Positions 26,801-35,597 of a stretch of DNA of 64,000 nt are shown in pieces (the stretch's first letter is position 1; every line of letters starts with the position of its first letter). The notes beneath the pieces were generated by a model. That model did not search any database and was not told the DNA's origin. It was given only the letters and a program-made list of their open reading frames with translations. The stretch comes from a virus, in IMG/VR virus record IMGVR_UViG_3300020392_000010, positions 21,192 through 85,191 of that record. One strand, given 5' to 3'. A program made the position numbers and the translations under genes.

Positions 26801-27610
26801 TTAAAAATCATAATTATTTTTTTCAAAACATTTTACATAAAATGGAAAGCTAATATACATTACATGTTTAATTTCATTTTCAGTAGCTATCCTAGATATG
26901 TATTCAAAATCTTCAAACTTATTTTGTGAATTAGTATCGCACCATTCCCATTTAGGGTATCCTCTTTTATGTATAATATTTGCGGTTGAAGCAGATACGA
27001 CATCTTTACTTGAACCCTTTATTACGTCTTTTAAAGAAATCCACATATCAGGTAATCCGTTTATTTTAAATGGCTCTCCTCTCTTTTGTTTTATTATTGA
27101 TCCTTCAGGTTTTTCTCCGTTAGAAATATTATCATATTTTTTATAATTATATACTAAGCTGTTATTTATAATATAGCGTATATCTAATGAACTTTCTTTT
27201 TTAGGAAAATCTGATATTTTTTTTATCATATTACATAACTTGAAAATAGAATTTTTTAAAATATAATCATCTGAATCTAGATACATTATCCAATCTCCCT
27301 TTGCATTTTCTACCCCTTTTTGCTTTGGTAATCCTCGTTTATAATTGCCATTTGAATTCATAAGTGTTTCATCAGATTTAGGTATTTTAATTAATCTAAT
27401 ATCTTTGTAGTGTTTAAAATACGTATTGTATATTTGTTCAGTTATGGTGCATCCATCGGAGACTATTATGAGTTCCCAATTTTCTATGGTTTGCAATATT
27501 ACAGAGTACACTGCTCTTATGAATTTTGATTTTGGGTTTTTTCTAGATTCAGGGTAATCCCCTAAATAAGATTGCATTATAATACTTACGTTAATTTCAT
27601 TTTTTATCAT
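26801..27610 (-). CDS. GT2-family glycosyltransferase
   Basis: 269 residues. GT-A fold: N-terminal VSIIMQSYLGDYP, then QTIENWELIIVSDGC, ENAKGDWIMYLDSDDYI (metal-binding DxD as DSDD). Family 2 inverting transferases use nucleotide sugars on cytosolic acceptors. There is no membrane segment. Its start overlaps the GH16 gene by 14 nt. Donor and acceptor cannot be read from the sequence. Confidence 0.8.
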   Translation of the reverse strand: MIKNEINVSIIMQSYLGDYPESRKNPKSKFIRAVYSVILQTIENWELIIVSDGCTITEQIYNTYFKHYKDIRLIKIPKSDETLMNSNGNYKRGLPKQKGVENAKGDWIMYLDSDDYILKNSIFKLCNMIKKISDFPKKESSLDIRYIINNSLVYNYKKYDNISNGEKPEGSIIKQKRGEPFKINGLPDMWISLKDVIKGSSKDVVSASTANIIHKRGYPKWEWCDTNSQNKFEDFEYISRIATENEIKHVMYISFPFYVKCFEKNNYDF

Positions 27611-28301
27611 AAGGGGTATACTTAAAATTTTTGCAAATCATTTCTGATACATGGTCTGTGCTTTTTAAACTAGCGTGTTCTTTTTTTATACTGTTGTTTA
27701 TAATTACATTTAAAGTTTTTCCACGTAAATGAGATACTGTAAAATTATCAGTTATATCTCTTACTAATTTATTATCAAAGTATATTTTAATTTCGTTTTC
27801 TTTCCATTCTAAACTATATTTGTGAAAATCTTTGCTAGGGCATTTCCAACCTAGCCAGTGGTTTTCAGCACCTATACTATAATTATGTGGCTCTTTTCCT
27901 AGATGCACATTTGTTTGTACTTTAAAAAAATTTCCCCATAATGCGTCTATATTCCAATTAAAATAGCTTGATTTTTTATTTGAATACCCTTCAAATACGT
28001 CTATTTCAGGTGGCCAACTTTCCCATGCCCACATCCAAAAAGCCGGCCATAAATAAGGTCCTTTTGGTAATTTAATATCTATGTCAAATCTACCATATCC
28101 AAATTTTTCAGTACAGTGAATTAGCCCTACCCCATATGGTGAAGTAACACCGTCTATTTCCTTTGGGTTGTAATGAGTTTTTAATATTAGATCCTCTCCT
28201 TGTATTTCAACAGCCGATTTATCATACCAACATTCTGGTTTTCCAGGGTGCATAAGACCCCATCTCTCTCCAACTTTCCATGTGTATCCTTGCCATTTCA
28301 T
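27597..28301 (-). CDS. GH16-family endoglycanase
   Basis: 234 residues. The catalytic signature PEIDVFEG (E99, D101, E104) is intact. Upstream FGYGRFDIDIKLPKG and LWPAFWMW are typical of GH16 beta-glucanases, laminarinases, agarases and carrageenases. No signal peptide, carbohydrate module or tail-fibre repeat, so it is either cytosolic, released at lysis, or a virion part by an unseen route. It is the first gene of a leftward set with GT2, HAD and a DUF115-like gene. Substrate unknown. Confidence 0.85.
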   Translation of the reverse strand: MKWQGYTWKVGERWGLMHPGKPECWYDKSAVEIQGEDLILKTHYNPKEIDGVTSPYGVGLIHCTEKFGYGRFDIDIKLPKGPYLWPAFWMWAWESWPPEIDVFEGYSNKKSSYFNWNIDALWGNFFKVQTNVHLGKEPHNYSIGAENHWLGWKCPSKDFHKYSLEWKENEIKIYFDNKLVRDITDNFTVSHLRGKTLNVIINNSIKKEHASLKSTDHVSEMICKNFKYTPYDKK

Positions 28302-28394
28302 AAAATTAATATTTATTATTATATATTAATGCCTATTTTATCAACTGTGTGTTAAATGTAAATATCAACATGCAGCTGCCTTATAAATAAATAT

Positions 28395-28967
28395 ATGAAA
28401 AACAAAGAACTACTTAAGGATTTAAAAGAATATGATAGATTTGGAAAAGATAAAGAAATATCTAAGGAAATATCTAAGGAAATAGGCGTTAGCGAATCAG
28501 TATTTACATATGGTTCTACTCCATATGAAACAGCTTTAGCATTAATAAAATCAGTTAATAAAAAACCTAGTAGATTTGTAGTTGTTGGAACAAGTATAGG
28601 TTGGATGAATTTTTACTGGAATGAAATATATCCAAATATACCCTCTCTAGGTATAGACATACACTATGGTAGAATTGAATTTGGAAATTCTTTAATTAAA
28701 AAACATAAACTATCTAATATAGAATTAAAAGTAGATGATTTATATAAATTTTCATTTAAAGATACTGATTTAATATGGTTAAGCAACTGCTGTTTTGATA
28801 CAAATGAAAATGCGAAAATAGTAAATGATATAATTGCAAAAAACCCTAATGTTTCTATAATTTCATATAAACCGTTTGATTCTAGCGTAAGGAGTAAAGT
28901 TACTAGACACAGTTTAGCCGTTAGCTGGATGCCACTTCAACCCTTTTGGGTGTATGATACGAAATAA
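28395..28967 (+). CDS. SAM-dependent methyltransferase-like protein
   Basis: 190 residues. Rossmann motif I FVVVGTSIGWMNFYW and the acidic end of strand 2 LGIDIH, followed by LKVDDL and DLIWLSNCCFD, recall Dot1-like or related class I methyltransferases. Motif I lacks the usual GxGxG glycines, so binding is uncertain. It starts a rightward cassette of four genes with short gaps or overlaps (flavoprotein-like, SET-like, ATP-grasp). TATAAATA at 28382 lies only 5 nt before the ATG. Confidence 0.5.
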   Translation: MKNKELLKDLKEYDRFGKDKEISKEISKEIGVSESVFTYGSTPYETALALIKSVNKKPSRFVVVGTSIGWMNFYWNEIYPNIPSLGIDIHYGRIEFGNSLIKKHKLSNIELKVDDLYKFSFKDTDLIWLSNCCFDTNENAKIVNDIIAKNPNVSIISYKPFDSSVRSKVTRHSLAVSWMPLQPFWVYDTK

Positions 28968-28976
28968 ATTTATAAA

Positions 28977-29945
28977 ATGAAAAAATTTGATATAGCATAT
29001 GTTTCTTCAAATATTTCATTTCTATTAGACTGTTATATTAATTCTTACAAAGGTTTAAATCTTTGTATAATAGATATGAAAGATGATTTAGGTGGGGCAT
29101 GGCAAATATCAGATGCTAGAGTACATTTACAATGGGTAAGTAATGAACATAAAAAATATATTTCTGTCATTAATGAGGACTTAAAAAAAGTTGATAGTAA
29201 ATTTCAAATAAAAGGGCCGCTTAAAAATGTTAAAACAATAGAGGATAAAAAATATACAGATTATTCACTTTATCACATTAATTTGGGTTCTAATTTGTTT
29301 ATAGAAGAGCTTGTTGAAAAAATTAAACGTAAAAACAATGTTGAAATAATTAAAGATAATATTAAAGAAGTTACGTTAGAGAATAATGTTTTTAATATTT
29401 TTGGTAAAGAAACTTACTTATCTAACAAATTATATTTGACTAATAATTTAAAATTAGATAAAATAGCTTTAAATAAAAAGGAATATAAATTGTATTCACA
29501 GGATAAAAAATATAATCACCTTTTTATTGAGGTTAAATCTAAAGATATTAAACCGTTAGACATTTTAATATGTGAAGGAAATGGCTTTAAATGGGATGGT
29601 AGAGAAATGTTTAATGCTGAAAAACAAAAAATTCATAGAAATTTGAATAATTCTTTGTTCTTTATGATAAACGTAAGTGAGTTATATAAAGATTTAAAAA
29701 ATACTCAACTTTTTTCATGTCGAATAAAAAATAAAAACTTTATAGAAGATTTTAAAAATTATTTACTTTATAACAATATAACAGAAAAAGATGTGGAAAT
29801 AAAAATATTAGAAGATGATGAGTATACCCAACATAGGCTCATAAATGCATACGCAATACCAAAAACCAAAAATTTAGAAATATTTACACAGATGAATTAT
29901 TTTAAATATTTAGTAAAATTAAATCAATTGAGAAATGAATATTAA
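28977..29945 (+). CDS. Flavoprotein-like oxidoreductase, divergent
   Basis: 322 residues. Near the N-terminus FDIAYVSSNISF leads into LCIIDMKDDLGGAWQ, the E/D-x6-GG arrangement found after the first Rossmann strand in FAD-dependent enzymes such as amine oxidases and UDP-galactopyranose mutases. The dinucleotide-binding GxGxxG is degenerate (YVSSNIS). SNLFIEELVEKIK and VEIIKDNIKEV fit the same family. Possibly degenerate or specialised. Overlaps the SET-like gene by 11 nt. Confidence 0.4.
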   Translation: MKKFDIAYVSSNISFLLDCYINSYKGLNLCIIDMKDDLGGAWQISDARVHLQWVSNEHKKYISVINEDLKKVDSKFQIKGPLKNVKTIEDKKYTDYSLYHINLGSNLFIEELVEKIKRKNNVEIIKDNIKEVTLENNVFNIFGKETYLSNKLYLTNNLKLDKIALNKKEYKLYSQDKKYNHLFIEVKSKDIKPLDILICEGNGFKWDGREMFNAEKQKIHRNLNNSLFFMINVSELYKDLKNTQLFSCRIKNKNFIEDFKNYLLYNNITEKDVEIKILEDDEYTQHRLINAYAIPKTKNLEIFTQMNYFKYLVKLNQLRNEY

Positions 29946-30567
29946 AAAAGGATACAGTATACCTAAATGTTTAGAACTAAGACAATCGCCATTGCACGGA
30001 CTCGGCTGCTTTGCAATAGAATTTATTCCAGCTGGTAGTAATTTAGGTATTTGTCACTATTATGACTATAGTGAAAGACCAGTTAAACATTTAAGAAACC
30101 CCATGGTTGGTTTTTTTAATTACTCAGTCAATAAAAACGCATGGCTACCTATAGTGAAAAAAGAATTTATAAATGGAAACGGTTGGGTTACTGAACTGGT
30201 AACAACCAAAGATATAGAAAAAGGTGAAGAAATTTTATTAAGGTATAGTTGGTATGACCCTACAAAACCTGATACTAAAAAAAATAAACACTACATTCCC
30301 TTACCGGATTGTGTTTCTATTGAAAAAAGAAATGGGGTGTATACCCTCTATGCAACTAAGGATATTATGAAAGATTTTGATTTTGGGTATTCTCATAGTT
30401 ATTATGATAAATCAGATTTATATGAGCCTAATCCAATAGGAGGATATTTGCTGGAATCTACTATACCTAATTGTGATATGTTTAAAAAAGATAAAGAGCT
30501 ATATTTAAAATCAAAAAGAAATATAAAAAAAGGAGAATCAATAAGCGTAAATTATGAAGTATTATAA
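29935..30567 (+). CDS. Double SET-domain-like protein
   Basis: 210 residues. Residues about 10-115 have SET features: LHGLGCFAIEFIPAGSN, GFFNYSVNKNAW (the NHS-like part), TTKDIEKGEEILLRYSW. Residues about 120-210 repeat the pattern in shorter form: YTLYATKDIMKDFDFGYS, LESTIPNCDMF, NIKKGESISVNYEVL. The second copy resembles an internal duplication. SET domains transfer methyl from SAM to protein Lys; substrate here unknown. Overlaps both neighbours in the cassette (11 and 14 nt). Confidence 0.6.
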   Translation: MNIKKGYSIPKCLELRQSPLHGLGCFAIEFIPAGSNLGICHYYDYSERPVKHLRNPMVGFFNYSVNKNAWLPIVKKEFINGNGWVTELVTTKDIEKGEEILLRYSWYDPTKPDTKKNKHYIPLPDCVSIEKRNGVYTLYATKDIMKDFDFGYSHSYYDKSDLYEPNPIGGYLLESTIPNCDMFKKDKELYLKSKRNIKKGESISVNYEVL

Positions 30568-31312
30568 TTATTTACCGCCTAGCTTAACTCAGTGGTCCCC
30601 TGAATTTGATTGCTCGTACATTTACCCTAAGTATAAAACATATATTGAAAATAATTATATGTTAACTCTAAGGCATAAAAATAAAATAGAATGTGAAACC
30701 ATGAAAAAACTTTATAACAAATATGAAGTTAAAAAGTTTTTTGAAAAGCACGGTTTAAATATACCTACACTATATTGTTATTCTACTAAAGATTCTGATA
30801 TTTCACATGCGTTAAGAGAAAAATATGTTGCTAAACCTGCTCACATGTCAGAGAATGATGGAGTTTTTATTAACGATAAAGACTTTGAAAAAGTAGATAA
30901 AAAACTTAGAGAATGTTTAAAGTCTTCACCAAGATCAACTGAACCGGAAATGATGAAACAAGCTGAAAAAGGCATGTTAGTTGAAGAGTATATTGAACAT
31001 GATTATGAATTTAAGGTATTTGTACTATATGGGTGCCCAATAGTTGGTGATTTAAGAAACGGATCAAAAGAATGGCATAGAGTAGATATGATAGATAAAA
31101 ACAATAATTATTTTAATTGGAATAAGGAATACGAAATATGTAAACATATTGCAAAAGAACTAAAAATAGATTTTTTTAGAATAGATTTTTTTTACAATAA
31201 AAAAGAGGACAAATTTTATGCAGGGGAAATGGCATTTAGACCTTCTACGCTACTTGGTAAAGAAATAGAAAAATTTATACTCTCTAAGTGGAAAAAAATG
31301 GCTAAATACTAA
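30554..31312 (+). CDS. ATP-grasp protein, TupA-like
   Basis: 252 residues. YVAKPAHMSENDGVF (ATP-binding Lys), LVEEYIEHDYEFKVFVLYG, DFFRIDFFY and FYAGEMAFRPS match the TupA-like ATP-grasp pattern, a family whose founder forms teichuronopeptide, a cell-wall polymer. ATP-grasp enzymes join a carboxylate to an amine or similar via acyl phosphate. Last gene of the four-gene cassette; its stop overlaps the convergent membrane-protein stop by 4 nt. Substrate unknown. Confidence 0.75.
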   Translation: MKYYNYLPPSLTQWSPEFDCSYIYPKYKTYIENNYMLTLRHKNKIECETMKKLYNKYEVKKFFEKHGLNIPTLYCYSTKDSDISHALREKYVAKPAHMSENDGVFINDKDFEKVDKKLRECLKSSPRSTEPEMMKQAEKGMLVEEYIEHDYEFKVFVLYGCPIVGDLRNGSKEWHRVDMIDKNNNYFNWNKEYEICKHIAKELKIDFFRIDFFYNKKEDKFYAGEMAFRPSTLLGKEIEKFILSKWKKMAKY

Positions 31313-31860: not shown

Positions 31861-32493
31861 CTATATGCCTAATATATTTGATATGTACTCATCGGCTTGT
31901 ACTTTACCCGATAATATATGATTTTTTATAATCTCATTTTGAAGAAATTGCTTATGAAATTTTAGTCTTCCTTTGTTTAATTCTCCTGGGTCAGATGTCT
32001 CTGGAATATAATTCTTGATGTGATGGTTATTGAAATCTGTCTCTGAATACATAGACATTCCAGTTATGTAAAATGATTCAGGGTTCATGTTAATTATTTC
32101 ATCTATGATATAAGTTCCCATTAAAGGAGCTGCCTTAATACGCTTTTTATATTTAAAAAATTCCTTATGTATTAGTCTTATTTTAAGATTAGGGTTTCTA
32201 TATCTCATATATAATTTTCTATAGTCATATTTTAAAGATAAATATTTTAAACCATTTATTCTATAGTCTTTAATAGACATATCCCCATGTATGGCAAAAT
32301 GCTGATTTACATACAAAGAATCACAACGCTTACCGTAATCTTTTTGTAATTCTTTAATTACAGGAAATGCACCGTTTGTTCTAATTACAATATCGTGAGA
32401 ATCTATAAACAGTCCTTTCTTTTTACCAATTAAAGTAACCGCGGGACCTACAAATATTACTCGCTTACCTTTAATAAAGTTACTATAATCCAC
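31861..32493 (-). CDS. Sialyltransferase-like protein (GT29-type)
   Basis: 210 residues. GKRVIFVGPAVTLIGKKKG, DSHDIVIRTNGAFP and FYITGMSMY recall the sialyl motifs L/S of GT29 (V-G-x-(G/A), D-x-V-x-R-x-N). This is the last gene of a tight operon: DUF115-like, NeuA, NeuB, this gene, with gaps of 1-4 nt. That context strongly favours transfer of a CMP-nonulosonate to an acceptor glycan or protein. Acceptor unknown; no membrane segment. Confidence 0.65.
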   Translation of the reverse strand: MDYSNFIKGKRVIFVGPAVTLIGKKKGLFIDSHDIVIRTNGAFPVIKELQKDYGKRCDSLYVNQHFAIHGDMSIKDYRINGLKYLSLKYDYRKLYMRYRNPNLKIRLIHKEFFKYKKRIKAAPLMGTYIIDEIINMNPESFYITGMSMYSETDFNNHHIKNYIPETSDPGELNKGRLKFHKQFLQNEIIKNHILSGKVQADEYISNILGI

Positions 32494-32497
32494 TTGT

Positions 32498-33355
32498 TTA
32501 TTTTCTAAGAGATTTCATTTTTTCAAGTTCTGATCCTATTACTTTTCTTGGACCATACCCTGACATAGCTTTTTCTATGTCTCTAATACCTTTTACTAGT
32601 TTTATAAGTCCGCCCGGTTCAACTGAAGCCATTTGATCAGAACCCCATAATGTTCTGTCTAATGTAATATGCCTTTCTATCCAAGTAGCACCTATTGGAA
32701 TAGTAGCCATTGTAGTGACTAATCCAAATTCATGCCCTGAATATCCAACTTCTGATTCTGTATTTTTAATAAGCCATTTTATATAGCCTAAATTAAGTTC
32801 ATTTATAGGCGAAGGATATGTTGAATTGGTGTGCATTATTACTTCTGGTTTACAGGTTTTAATGCACTTTTGAACCTCTTCTTCTGTACTCATTCCGGTG
32901 CTTATTATCAAAAAATCAGACTTGTCTTTTGCATACGAACATAGGTCAATGTTTGTTATTAAAGCAGATGGAATCTTCATAATAAAACTACCATGGTTAG
33001 AATAATTATTGTCTGTAATAAAGTCAACGGATAACTTATCCCAAACTGAAACAAACCAACCTATTTCTTTTTCTTGACAATACCTGTCTATTTCGTCAAA
33101 CTCTTTCTTACCAAATTCTATATCATGCTTATACTGAATATATGTAATTTCTTCTTCTCTCCATGGAACACGCTTAGGTTTATTTTTTTGATCATCAGGT
33201 ACGCATATATCGGGTGTTCTTTTTTGAAATTTTACCCAATTACAACCTGCTACACACGCTGCGTCTATTAGTTTTTTTGCGTTATCTAAAAACTTAGATT
33301 TATCGTTTCCATATGCATAATTTATGCCTATTTCAGCTATTATTTTTACAGCCAT
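32498..33355 (-). CDS. neuB: N-acetylneuraminate (nonulosonate) synthase NeuB-like
   Basis: 285 residues. NeuB TIM barrel with GCNWVKFQKR, MHTNSTYPSP, VGYSGHEFG and IERHITLDRTLWGSDQ, the conserved active-site elements for condensing PEP with N-acetylmannosamine or a related sugar. Common NeuB proteins of about 340 residues end in a SAF antifreeze-like domain; this one stops before it, so the usual partner-subunit lid is missing or comes from elsewhere. Works with NeuA downstream in the pathway, encoded 1 nt upstream. Confidence 0.9.
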   Translation of the reverse strand: MAVKIIAEIGINYAYGNDKSKFLDNAKKLIDAACVAGCNWVKFQKRTPDICVPDDQKNKPKRVPWREEEITYIQYKHDIEFGKKEFDEIDRYCQEKEIGWFVSVWDKLSVDFITDNNYSNHGSFIMKIPSALITNIDLCSYAKDKSDFLIISTGMSTEEEVQKCIKTCKPEVIMHTNSTYPSPINELNLGYIKWLIKNTESEVGYSGHEFGLVTTMATIPIGATWIERHITLDRTLWGSDQMASVEPGGLIKLVKGIRDIEKAMSGYGPRKVIGSELEKMKSLRK

Positions 33356-33356
33356 G

Positions 33357-33992
33357 CTATTTTTTATTTTTTTTAAACTCGTTTAAATCATCTAACGTAT
33401 CTACATCTATCACTTTTTTATTTATGGGTAAAAAATAAGTATTGTTATTATATAAGTTATTATTTAAATTATTTATTACATTTGACTTAAACAAACATAT
33501 ATAATGACTTAATTCAAAGCATTCAGGGTAATCTTGTCTTCTATATAAATCATGATGAAAAAGTTGAGAACCTTTGTTATTTTTTTCCTCTTTTAGCATC
33601 AAAAAAGGACTAATATCTAGTGGGTGCTTACATAATAAAGAGTCTAGATTAAGCGAGTCAAAACAAACCATAGCTGTTTGAACATCTTTCCATTTCCTAA
33701 GCGGATAGGTTAAATATAACATTAAAATCGTTTCATCTAGTATATTTAAAGTATCTATAGTATATTTCATTATATCTTTAGAAGAAGCTTTATCAGAAGA
33801 CACCTCTGGTGTTCTATTTAAAACATTAAACTTATATTTAATGGCCTGTTTTTTTATATGTTCGTCATCTGTAGTTACATATGTTAAGTGCTTCATTGCT
33901 TCTGGTATAATATTAGCAGTATATTCAAATAGTTTTCTATTTTTTAAAGGAACGCCTTTTGAACCTTTTCTAGCTGGTATAATTATTTTCAT
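33357..33992 (-). CDS. neuA: CMP-sialic acid synthetase NeuA-like
   Basis: 211 residues. IPARKGSKGVPLKNRK is the NeuA/KdsB CTP-binding motif; VTTDDEHIKK and LYLTYPLRKWKDVQ follow in family order. It activates a nonulosonate with CTP to the CMP donor. The start overlaps the previous stop and the stop lies 1 nt from neuB, so the operon is coupled. Somewhat shorter than bacterial NeuA (about 230 or more). Confidence 0.88.
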   Translation of the reverse strand: MKIIIPARKGSKGVPLKNRKLFEYTANIIPEAMKHLTYVTTDDEHIKKQAIKYKFNVLNRTPEVSSDKASSKDIMKYTIDTLNILDETILMLYLTYPLRKWKDVQTAMVCFDSLNLDSLLCKHPLDISPFLMLKEEKNNKGSQLFHHDLYRRQDYPECFELSHYICLFKSNVINNLNNNLYNNNTYFLPINKKVIDVDTLDDLNEFKKNKK

Positions 33993-34597
33993 AAAGATTT
34001 AAATTTTTCTATTGATATTTTAGGTAATGAATCTATTTTACTATCTTGACTTAAATTATAAAAGTCTACGTTTCTTTTATTTAATTGTAACTTTAATACT
34101 CTATAGCCTTCGTTAACTTGTTTCAATTTATTCATTTGCGATAAAGGATGATCACCATCTTTTATATAAAAGTGATGAGGTGTAAAATCAACGCCTATTA
34201 ACCCTATTTTTGAAAAACCCATTTTATAAGCTATGCATACGGCTACATAAGGTGAATTTAAACAGTAATCAACTTTATTATCTGAATCTAGATTGGAAAG
34301 CCTACGATTTCCTAGCTCAAAAATTATTGTTTTTTTATTATTCCAGCCTTTTACGCATGTAAATAAAGCTTTAGTAGAAGATTCAGTTATTAAATTTCTT
34401 CTATTTTGATTAAATCTAATTGGGTGATCTGTTACTACTAAATAAGTAGGGGTAAATAGTGCTGGTACATCATTAACACCTATTGTTATAAAGTTTTTAT
34501 AGTTACTTTTTATTTTATTTAAAGACACGCCGCAACCGCATACTATAACAGACTCTCCTTTATGAATATTTTTAAAGTTTGATAAAGTATTTGTCAT
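33989..34597 (-). CDS. Glycosyltransferase/DUF115-like protein, first gene of sialic-acid operon
   Basis: 202 residues from the ATG at 34597; the frame is open to 34648 but the extra part looks random and runs into the dnaJ leader. GESVIVCGCGVSLNK, FITIGVNDVP, YLVVTDHPIRF and IGLIGVDF match the DUF115-like protein at 25864-26472 in order. It starts the leftward neuA-neuB operon with a 4-nt overlap. A glycan-transfer role is inferred. Confidence 0.65.
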   Translation of the reverse strand: MTNTLSNFKNIHKGESVIVCGCGVSLNKIKSNYKNFITIGVNDVPALFTPTYLVVTDHPIRFNQNRRNLITESSTKALFTCVKGWNNKKTIIFELGNRRLSNLDSDNKVDYCLNSPYVAVCIAYKMGFSKIGLIGVDFTPHHFYIKDGDHPLSQMNKLKQVNEGYRVLKLQLNKRNVDFYNLSQDSKIDSLPKISIEKFKSL

Positions 34598-34652
34598 TTT
34601 CGATATATAAATTAAACTACATTGTTTTATACAAAAAAACCTAATCAATGTT

Positions 34653-35597
34653 TTGAATAAAAATTATTATAAAATATTAGAAGTAGAAGAAAACGCTACT
34701 CAAAAAGATATAAAGGCATCATATAGAAAATTAGCTAAAAAATATCACCCCGATACAAATAAAGAAAATAAATCATATGAAGAAAAATTTAAACAAGTAG
34801 CTGAGGCATATGATACACTAGGAGATTCTGAAAAAAGAAAAAACTACGATGAATCTAGAAGAAATCCATATCAAAGAAATAATTTTGGAGGATTTAAACA
34901 ATCCGGATTTGGATTTGAAGGAGGGTTTGGATTTGACGAATTTGTAAAAAGCGCATTTAATAGAAATAGCGCAAGAAATAATAATACCAGTAGATTAAAT
35001 ATAAAAGTTAAAACACAGGCTGATCTACAGGATTTAATTAATGAATCTGAAATAAAAGTTTTATTTGAGAGAAAACTTTTTGATAAATCAAAAGAAAATA
35101 AAGAAATAAAGTTTAAAATAGATTTAAGAAAAAGAAAATATGATATTAGAAAAATATCAAATGATTATGTTATAGTCATAAAACTATCGGGTTTAGGGGA
35201 CGAACTAAAAGGAATACGAAATAACGCATGGGGAGGATCAGAAGAATTTCATGCAATAGGTGATCTAATAGTTGAAATAAAAATAATATCTAAAGTTGAT
35301 TTTAAAATAGAAGACGGAAACATACATGAAAACATAAACATAAACCTATATGATGTGCTGTTTAATAAAGACAGGGACTACATAGTAAATTCTGCCCTTG
35401 GTAAAAAATATAGATTAGATATATGTAATCCAAAAAATTTAAGCTCTTTAAAATTTACTGTTAAATCTAATGGAGTAGTAGGTAATAATAATAAATTAGG
35501 AGACTATGTTGCTAACTTAATAGTTAACTCTCCAGATTTAAGTAAAATGAATAATCAAGACTTAAAAAATTTAAAGGATATTTTATCTAAAGTATAA
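34653..35597 (+). CDS. dnaJ: DnaJ-like co-chaperone (TTG start)
   Basis: 314 residues beginning at TTG; an ATG 5 nt before is out of frame. J domain at residues 1-67 with HPD at 32-34, then a Gly/Phe-rich stretch ([19 protein letters not shown]) and a C-terminal substrate-binding domain without the CxxCxGxG zinc repeats. It would recruit host DnaK to phage substrates. It lies just upstream of the protease-scaffold and capsid genes, suggesting help with head assembly (inference). Confidence 0.85.

Follow-up and report, generated by a model that had tools for sequence, protein, structure and literature searches.

A core of three genes, encoding a predicted protein-lysine-methyltransferase-like enzyme (A), a tandem SET protein (C) and a predicted ATP-grasp ligase (D), recurs in several distantly related marine phages, often contiguously. 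We propose that these genes form a late phage module that would add methyl groups to lysines and form amides on a single surface protein, belonging either to the virion or to the host envelope, and we give this reading a probability of about 0.42. Each of the enzyme families is known. The conserved combination appears to be undescribed for viruses, and a literature search that covered few subscription journals found no work joining ATP-grasp, SET domain and phage. Protein-lysine methylation has scarcely been studied in phages; if the proposal is real, a SET enzyme, a PKMT/DOT1-like enzyme and an amide-forming ligase across marine phages would make up a new class of viral protein modification. 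The cassette would also allow a tractable test of whether phages place marks that alter charge on virions or on the host surface, and it is relevant to the history of SET and DOT1 enzymes in viruses.

Gene organization of the cassette

The window analysed here is a stretch of 64,000 nucleotides, positions 21192-85191 of an 85,191-base IMG/VR virus record. Its source is a tailed phage with portal, major head, prohead protease, baseplate, DNA polymerase B and topoisomerase II genes, and the cassette lies in the region of the baseplate gene. An earlier note on this DNA had described four rightward genes, and all four open reading frames are present at that place on the plus strand: A (28395..28967, 190 aa), encoding a class I methyltransferase of the PKMT/DOT1-like type, predicted to be a protein-lysine N-methyltransferase; B (28977..29945, 322 aa), encoding a Rossmann/GR2-flavoprotein-like protein; C (29935..30567, 210 aa), encoding the tandem SET protein (PF00856); and D (30554..31312, 252 aa), encoding, by its family profiles, a putative ATP-grasp carboxylate-amine ligase of the TupA/sugar-transfer-like type. 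B and C overlap by 11 nt and C and D by 14 nt, as described, and the gap between A and B is 9 nt instead of 10. The cassette is indeed on the strand opposite to the adjoining glycan genes on its left and right. The convergent ends claimed for both sides were found on the right only, where D ends at 31312 and the minus-strand gene ends at 31309, the stop of D overlapping this next gene. The left junction is divergent, with the GH16 gene starting at 28301 on the minus strand and A starting at 28395 on the plus strand, and the gap upstream of A is 93 nt. The dN/dS values of the window genes against their relatives are 0.10-0.44, indicating constraint; all four cassette genes are genuine and intact, and the selection acting on them is purifying.

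RiPP maturation was considered and set aside, since no precursor was found among open reading frames of at least 60 aa and the contiguous genes A-D (at most 9 nt between them) leave almost no space. A candidate late-promoter motif, TATAAATA, has a copy just before A (28382-28389). It was given no weight, because 25.6 copies are expected in the window and 20 are present, and because relatives do not keep the site. Elsewhere in the window, a full-length DnaJ-like gene (34653-35597, plus strand) adjoins the prohead protease gene and has equivalents in records G001, G004, G005 and G006.

Recurrence of the cassette in other phages

The search for relatives covered IMG/VR, isolated phages and bacterial genomes. 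Two long contigs (L004 and L005) carry A-B-C-D followed by a GH16 gene on the same strand, and a 13-kb contig from a Prochlorococcus single-cell genome (L059) carries A-B-C-D, a PrsW-like gene and then GH16. L001-L003 show the arrangement GH16(-)-A-C-D without B, and their flanking baseplate gene is 83% identical to that of the window. The distant L020-L022 have A-C-D as well, with identities to the window proteins of 37-42% for A, 40-44% for C and 47-49% for D. L014 has A-B-C and then a different ATP-grasp-like ORF at the contig end, L028 and L029 have an A-D pair, and L018 and L019 have A followed by an ATP-grasp-like gene; the L018 and L028 cassettes adjoin genes of the tail sheath/tube type, named by eye. 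B occurs alone in L010, and D occurs without A or C, within the 6 kb fetched, in L057 and L058. Wherever A occurs in a phage, an ATP-grasp or ATP-grasp-like gene adjoins it or lies in the same run, and in two lineages this gene differs from D. Since several contigs are near-duplicates, the number of independent cassette lineages, about 6-8 by inspection, is below the contig count. The same order, A-C-D or A-B-C-D, in several phage lineages argues for linkage beyond chance.

The earlier note had proposed a search for the gene set outside this phage. The set does recur, which supports an unusual linked system. The quartet as such is not the conserved unit, as B is absent from L001-L003 and L020-L022; B is an optional member, missing in several lineages. 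The GH16 gene lies outside the coordinates of the earlier note, yet in the lineage of the window it is part of the linked set. It adjoins the cassette in L001-L003, L004 and L005, is one gene away in L059, and was found only in records G000-G005 and G016, always beside the cassette or one gene off.

The isolated phages yielded matches to SET proteins only, and none to A, B or D. Among 292 genomes of the cyanobacterial phylum, no relative of B, C or D was found except on the 13-kb Prochlorococcus single-cell contig, which was also the only hit when genome contigs were scanned with D. This contig looks phage-derived. Its B is broken into two frames (L059:1253-2210), by a frameshift or an assembly error, and it carries an M43 peptidase gene (L059:10606-11598, minus strand) with a Por-secretion-tail-like C-terminus, below cut-off; since the latter hints at a Bacteroidota host, L059 may be a stray phage. 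The bacterial relatives of A are orphans without C or D, so A is not always partnered with these genes. An origin of the cassette in host genomes was rejected on the near-absence of B, C and D from these 292 genomes and on the orphan status of A. The orphan A-like methyltransferases (L065-L070 and L074-L083) are about 195-250 aa long and occur in several copies per genome in some cyanobacterial-phylum genomes, and some of them visibly carry a YGxTP motif.

Assignment of methyltransferase A

Pfam and PDB sequence searches confirmed the earlier call of a class I methyltransferase for A. The single sequence, searched with phmmer against the PDB, matched Rickettsia PKMT2 (5doo, E 4.9e-5) and gave no other significant match. 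With the family profile (A6), PKMT2 (E 2.3e-10) and PKMT1 (1.2e-5) came well before the next methyltransferase (0.0044). In profile-profile comparison, A aligned (E 3e-7) with the DOT1-like proteins whose genes precede it in other phages, over the YG(S/E)xT motif and the SAM core; against the DOT1 family PF08123 the window protein scored 15.1 bits, below the cut-off of 23. The PKMT matches in the PDB and the alignment with DOT1-like phage proteins place A, by sequence, among the class I enzymes that resemble protein-lysine methyltransferases.

A second methyltransferase gene, of the DOT1-like type, immediately precedes A in L018-L022 and L028. Those of L018 and L028 are above the DOT1 Pfam cut-off, and those of L020-L022 are weaker. 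The L018 enzyme matched a DOT1 histone methyltransferase (E 1e-12) and the archaeal aKMT (E 1e-11). It is fused to a J-domain-like protein (L018:6831-7994), in which the J-domain-like stretch matches PF00226 with E 0.003, below cut-off, and in L028 (6187-7380) the DOT1-like methyltransferase follows a J-domain-like protein. The J-domain link at these two loci suggests chaperone-linked methylation of folding proteins.

The tandem SET protein C

The SET call for C was borne out by a match to PF00856 over its cut-off (E 4e-12). The protein carries the SET domain twice in tandem, by internal duplication. Pfam matches SET at two distinct places in the gene, a single-domain phage SET protein matches it in two pieces, and its N-terminal half aligns with its C-terminal half by hhalign (E 2.6e-8, 29% identity, 84 columns). 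When the AF2 model (pLDDT 74) was compared with known structures, residues 1-106 matched MLL1 SET (Z 12.3) and residues 120-210 matched S. pombe Set7 (Z 11.5 over 89 aa), so that both halves support the duplication.

The N-terminal half (about 8-112) retains HGLG, FFNYS and Y104, and the C-terminal half (about 120-210) is degenerate, having lost GxG and the Asn-His-Ser-like residues. H21-G22-x-G24, F61-N62 and Y104 are invariant in the alignment of the family (A7, n = 7). Position 63 is Tyr in six of the seven, whereas canonical SET domains have His (NHS). SET histone methyltransferases were matched in the PDB, with vSET as the best profile match. The title of Manzur 2003, cited in PMC10117894, describes vSET as dimeric, and by analogy the second half of C may replace the dimer partner.

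ATP-grasp ligase D and its glycan surroundings

The earlier TupA-like ATP-grasp call for D is supported through its relatives, and the window protein itself has no PF14305 match. Across the D family, the best matches were E 4.8e-6 to PF14305 (TupA) and E 6e-6 to PF14397 (ATPgrasp_ST); two of the seven D relatives match PF14305, and L020 reaches 21.4 bits against the cut-off of 25. Several ATP-grasp Pfam models match the window D, all below their cut-offs. The alignment of the family (A8, n = 7) has K94, E144/E145, R209-D211, E225 and F228-T232 invariant, and these include the ATP-binding Lys, hinge Glu and metal-binding Asp/Glu of ATP-grasp enzymes (K94, E144/E145, D211 and E225). The end motif of D, E-x-x-F-x-P, resembles that of TupA-like and sugar-transfer ligases. 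D is predicted to form an amide, or a similar bond, at the expense of ATP.

The ORFs in the place of D in L018 and L014 look like circularly permuted ATP-grasps, as judged from Pfam motif positions only. In L018 (8569-9513), an N-terminal stretch matches the C-terminal ATP-grasp motif (YheC/D, TTL, RimK) and a later stretch matches the N-terminal part of ATP-grasp models; in L014 (10149-10859), an N-terminal ATP-grasp motif was recognised by eye only. Since hhalign of D against these two genes gave no significant match, they are not established as homologs of D.

The linked GH16 gene (27597..28301, minus strand) encodes a laminarinase/endo-1,3-beta-glucanase-like glycosidase. It matches PF00722 with E 4e-18 (65.9 bits, cut-off 22), its ExDxxE catalytic motif is intact (PPEIDVFE in the window, PPEID(V/I)FE conserved in three members), and its PDB matches are GH16 enzymes (E 3.9e-9), mostly laminarinases and endo-1,3-beta-glucanases. 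The window cassette is also surrounded by NeuB, cytidylyltransferase, GT29-like and GT2 genes. Three of these types (NeuB, cytidylyltransferase and GT29/MptE-like; 31861-34648, minus strand) suggest phage-encoded synthesis and transfer of nonulosonic (sialic-type) acid. NeuB is present in G000-G003 and in the Prochlorococcus assembly, and L001-L003 carry it nearby.

These neighbours bear on the main rival to our proposal, the decoration of a surface glycan. Here D would join an amino acid or amine, through an amide bond, to the carboxylate of an acidic sugar (a uronic or nonulosonic acid), A and C would methylate the added amine and GH16 would trim the polymer, so that host capsule or LPS or virion glycans would be altered. 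Such a role would suit the glycan genes around the window cassette and near L001-L003, the linkage of GH16 in four arrangements and the resemblance of D to TupA and sugar-transfer ATP-grasps, and it has a precedent in Cj1438, whose TupA-like ATP-grasp fold forms the amide of glucuronate with serinol phosphate or ethanolamine phosphate (PMC11800379). However, the known targets of SET and PKMT/DOT1-like enzymes are proteins and not glycans, and A-C-D in L020-L022 and A-D in L028 have no adjoining glycan-synthesis genes. NeuB was not found in the cassette records G004 (146 kb), G005 (160 kb), G006 (198 kb) and G008 (158 kb), nor was GT2, the sole glycosyltransferase family searched, in G004 and G005, all of these records being possibly incomplete. 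Two cassette records of 146-160 kb with neither NeuB nor GT2 weaken the glycan reading, which we consider somewhat unlikely. Amidation of nonulosonic acid as a general role was rejected, since the large cassette records gave no NeuB match.

The optional gene B

B had been called flavoprotein-like. It gave no match in Pfam, NCBIfam or PDB sequences, and the GxGxxG dinucleotide motif was not found at its N-terminus, which has DIAYVSSNISFLLD instead, followed by ID...LGGAW. The AF2 model, which is poor (pLDDT 50), lends the call weak support: those structure matches that extend over about 200 residues are to FAD enzymes (protoporphyrinogen oxidase 1sez, phytoene desaturase 5mog, PA4991 5ez7 and sarcosine oxidase 1vrq), with Z 4.5-5.4, below the tool's meaningful level. 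The flavoprotein identity of B is a lead only. B is 72-75% identical to the window protein in L004, L005 and L014 and 58% identical overall (53% in the best segment) in L010.

Taken together, the ATP-grasp, both methyltransferases and B as a possible amine-oxidase-like flavoprotein would be a plausible biosynthetic set, and the whole-length matches of B include sarcosine oxidase and PA4991, both weak. The cassette could then make a small molecule, a methylated amino-acid amide (e.g., a trimethyl-lysine conjugate) acting as a toxin, siderophore-like compound or signal, with B as the oxidase. We regard this as quite unlikely, as the cassette has no carrier, exporter or precursor gene linked to it in a conserved way, SET enzymes normally require a protein substrate, and B is absent in several lineages and its model is too weak to give a function.

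Proposed function

The earlier note had left a choice between a peptide or surface polymer and a protein as the thing modified. Protein modification is the better supported of these alternatives, since A and C belong to or resemble protein-lysine methyltransferases. A protein target is favoured by these two enzymes together with the failure to find NeuB and GT2 in some records, and a surface location is favoured by the relatives of D and by GH16. The conserved linkage, the PKMT/SET/DOT1-like chemistry, the tail/baseplate context and the purifying selection all speak for the module proposed here.

For the activities, substrate, shared target, location, benefit and any role of B, we infer the following. 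A, C and D would be a transferable phage module whose enzymes covalently modify the same protein, the likeliest candidates being a virion protein exposed at the surface (tail or fibre) or a protein of the host envelope. A and C would transfer methyl groups from SAM to lysine side chains, with the first half of C being catalytic and the second half serving as a built-in partner in place of the dimer subunit of vSET. D would use ATP to activate a carboxylate and would then couple this group to an amine. The overall outcome would be a surface whose charge is hidden or altered, which may shield the phage or block further adsorption. Where B is present, it might oxidise an intermediate or a methylated amine, and the part of the linked GH16 would be to trim a beta-glucan at that surface.

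Several observations stand against this reading. TupA-like ATP-grasps with known activity act on glycans (PMC11800379), and the cassette lies among GT, NeuB and cytidylyltransferase genes with a glycosidase linked to it. A is without the extra domains of the 535-aa rickettsial PKMTs, and most C proteins have Tyr63. A is found in bacteria without C or D, and nearness to tail genes could be common to late regions in general.

A viral ligate-then-methylate route, in which D would link an amino acid, for instance lysine, to a carboxylate group on a protein of the virion or envelope, and the amine of the added amino acid would then be methylated by A and C, is unlikely. If true, it would be a quaternary-amine surface decoration, which is not known from any virus, and the degenerate tandem SET half would be a built-in partner of the catalytic half.

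The target might also be intracellular. DOT1 and SET enzymes classically act on DNA-binding proteins, and the cassette could modify host proteins of translation, RNA polymerase, the nucleoid or defence, for host takeover or counter-defence. Phage ATP-grasps were earlier proposed to modify proteins, and the R2K-clade phage peptide ligases are predicted to act in this way (PMC4431377, PMC7824862); the role would be analogous to that proposed for phage R2K ATP-grasps and ADP-ribosyltransferases. However, the similarity of D to R2K (R2K_2) is marginal (E 0.026), PADLOC matched the generic methyltransferase part only (mad2), and the cassette is near late structural genes, not in a clear early region. 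We hold such a role to be quite unlikely. A defence system was rejected on the same PADLOC result.

Comparison with known systems

The R2K-clade ATP-grasp peptide ligases of phages are proposed protein modifiers, as is D, to which they are marginally similar. Unlike D, they have no SET or PKMT partner named in the available part of their description (PMC4431377). TupA-like and sugar-transfer ligases, which include the C-terminal domain of Cj1438, rank with the best-matching Pfam models for the D family. Unlike Cj1438, D stands alone and is linked to methyltransferases, and in several phages it has no glycan genes beside it.

The outer-membrane PKMTs include Rickettsia PKMT1 and PKMT2 and Acinetobacter KmtA, and the two rickettsial enzymes were compared with A. 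These two share the methyltransferase core with A and are its best, and nearly only significant, matches among solved structures. The rickettsial enzymes are about 535-554 aa long and have extra domains after the core, whereas A is a 190-aa minimal core, its match covering positions 44-162 of the 535-residue chain. Outer-membrane PKMTs methylate surface adhesins multiple times (PMC11784438), which is a precedent for the proposed modification; unlike them, A adjoins a SET protein and an ATP-grasp. P-SSM7, P-RSM6 and Pelagibacter phage Kolga have single-domain SET proteins that can be aligned to C and that, unlike C, lie outside any recognisable cassette in annotated phages. vSET of chlorovirus PBCV-1 has the same SET fold as C, and C differs from it in being a tandem protein with a motif-less second half.
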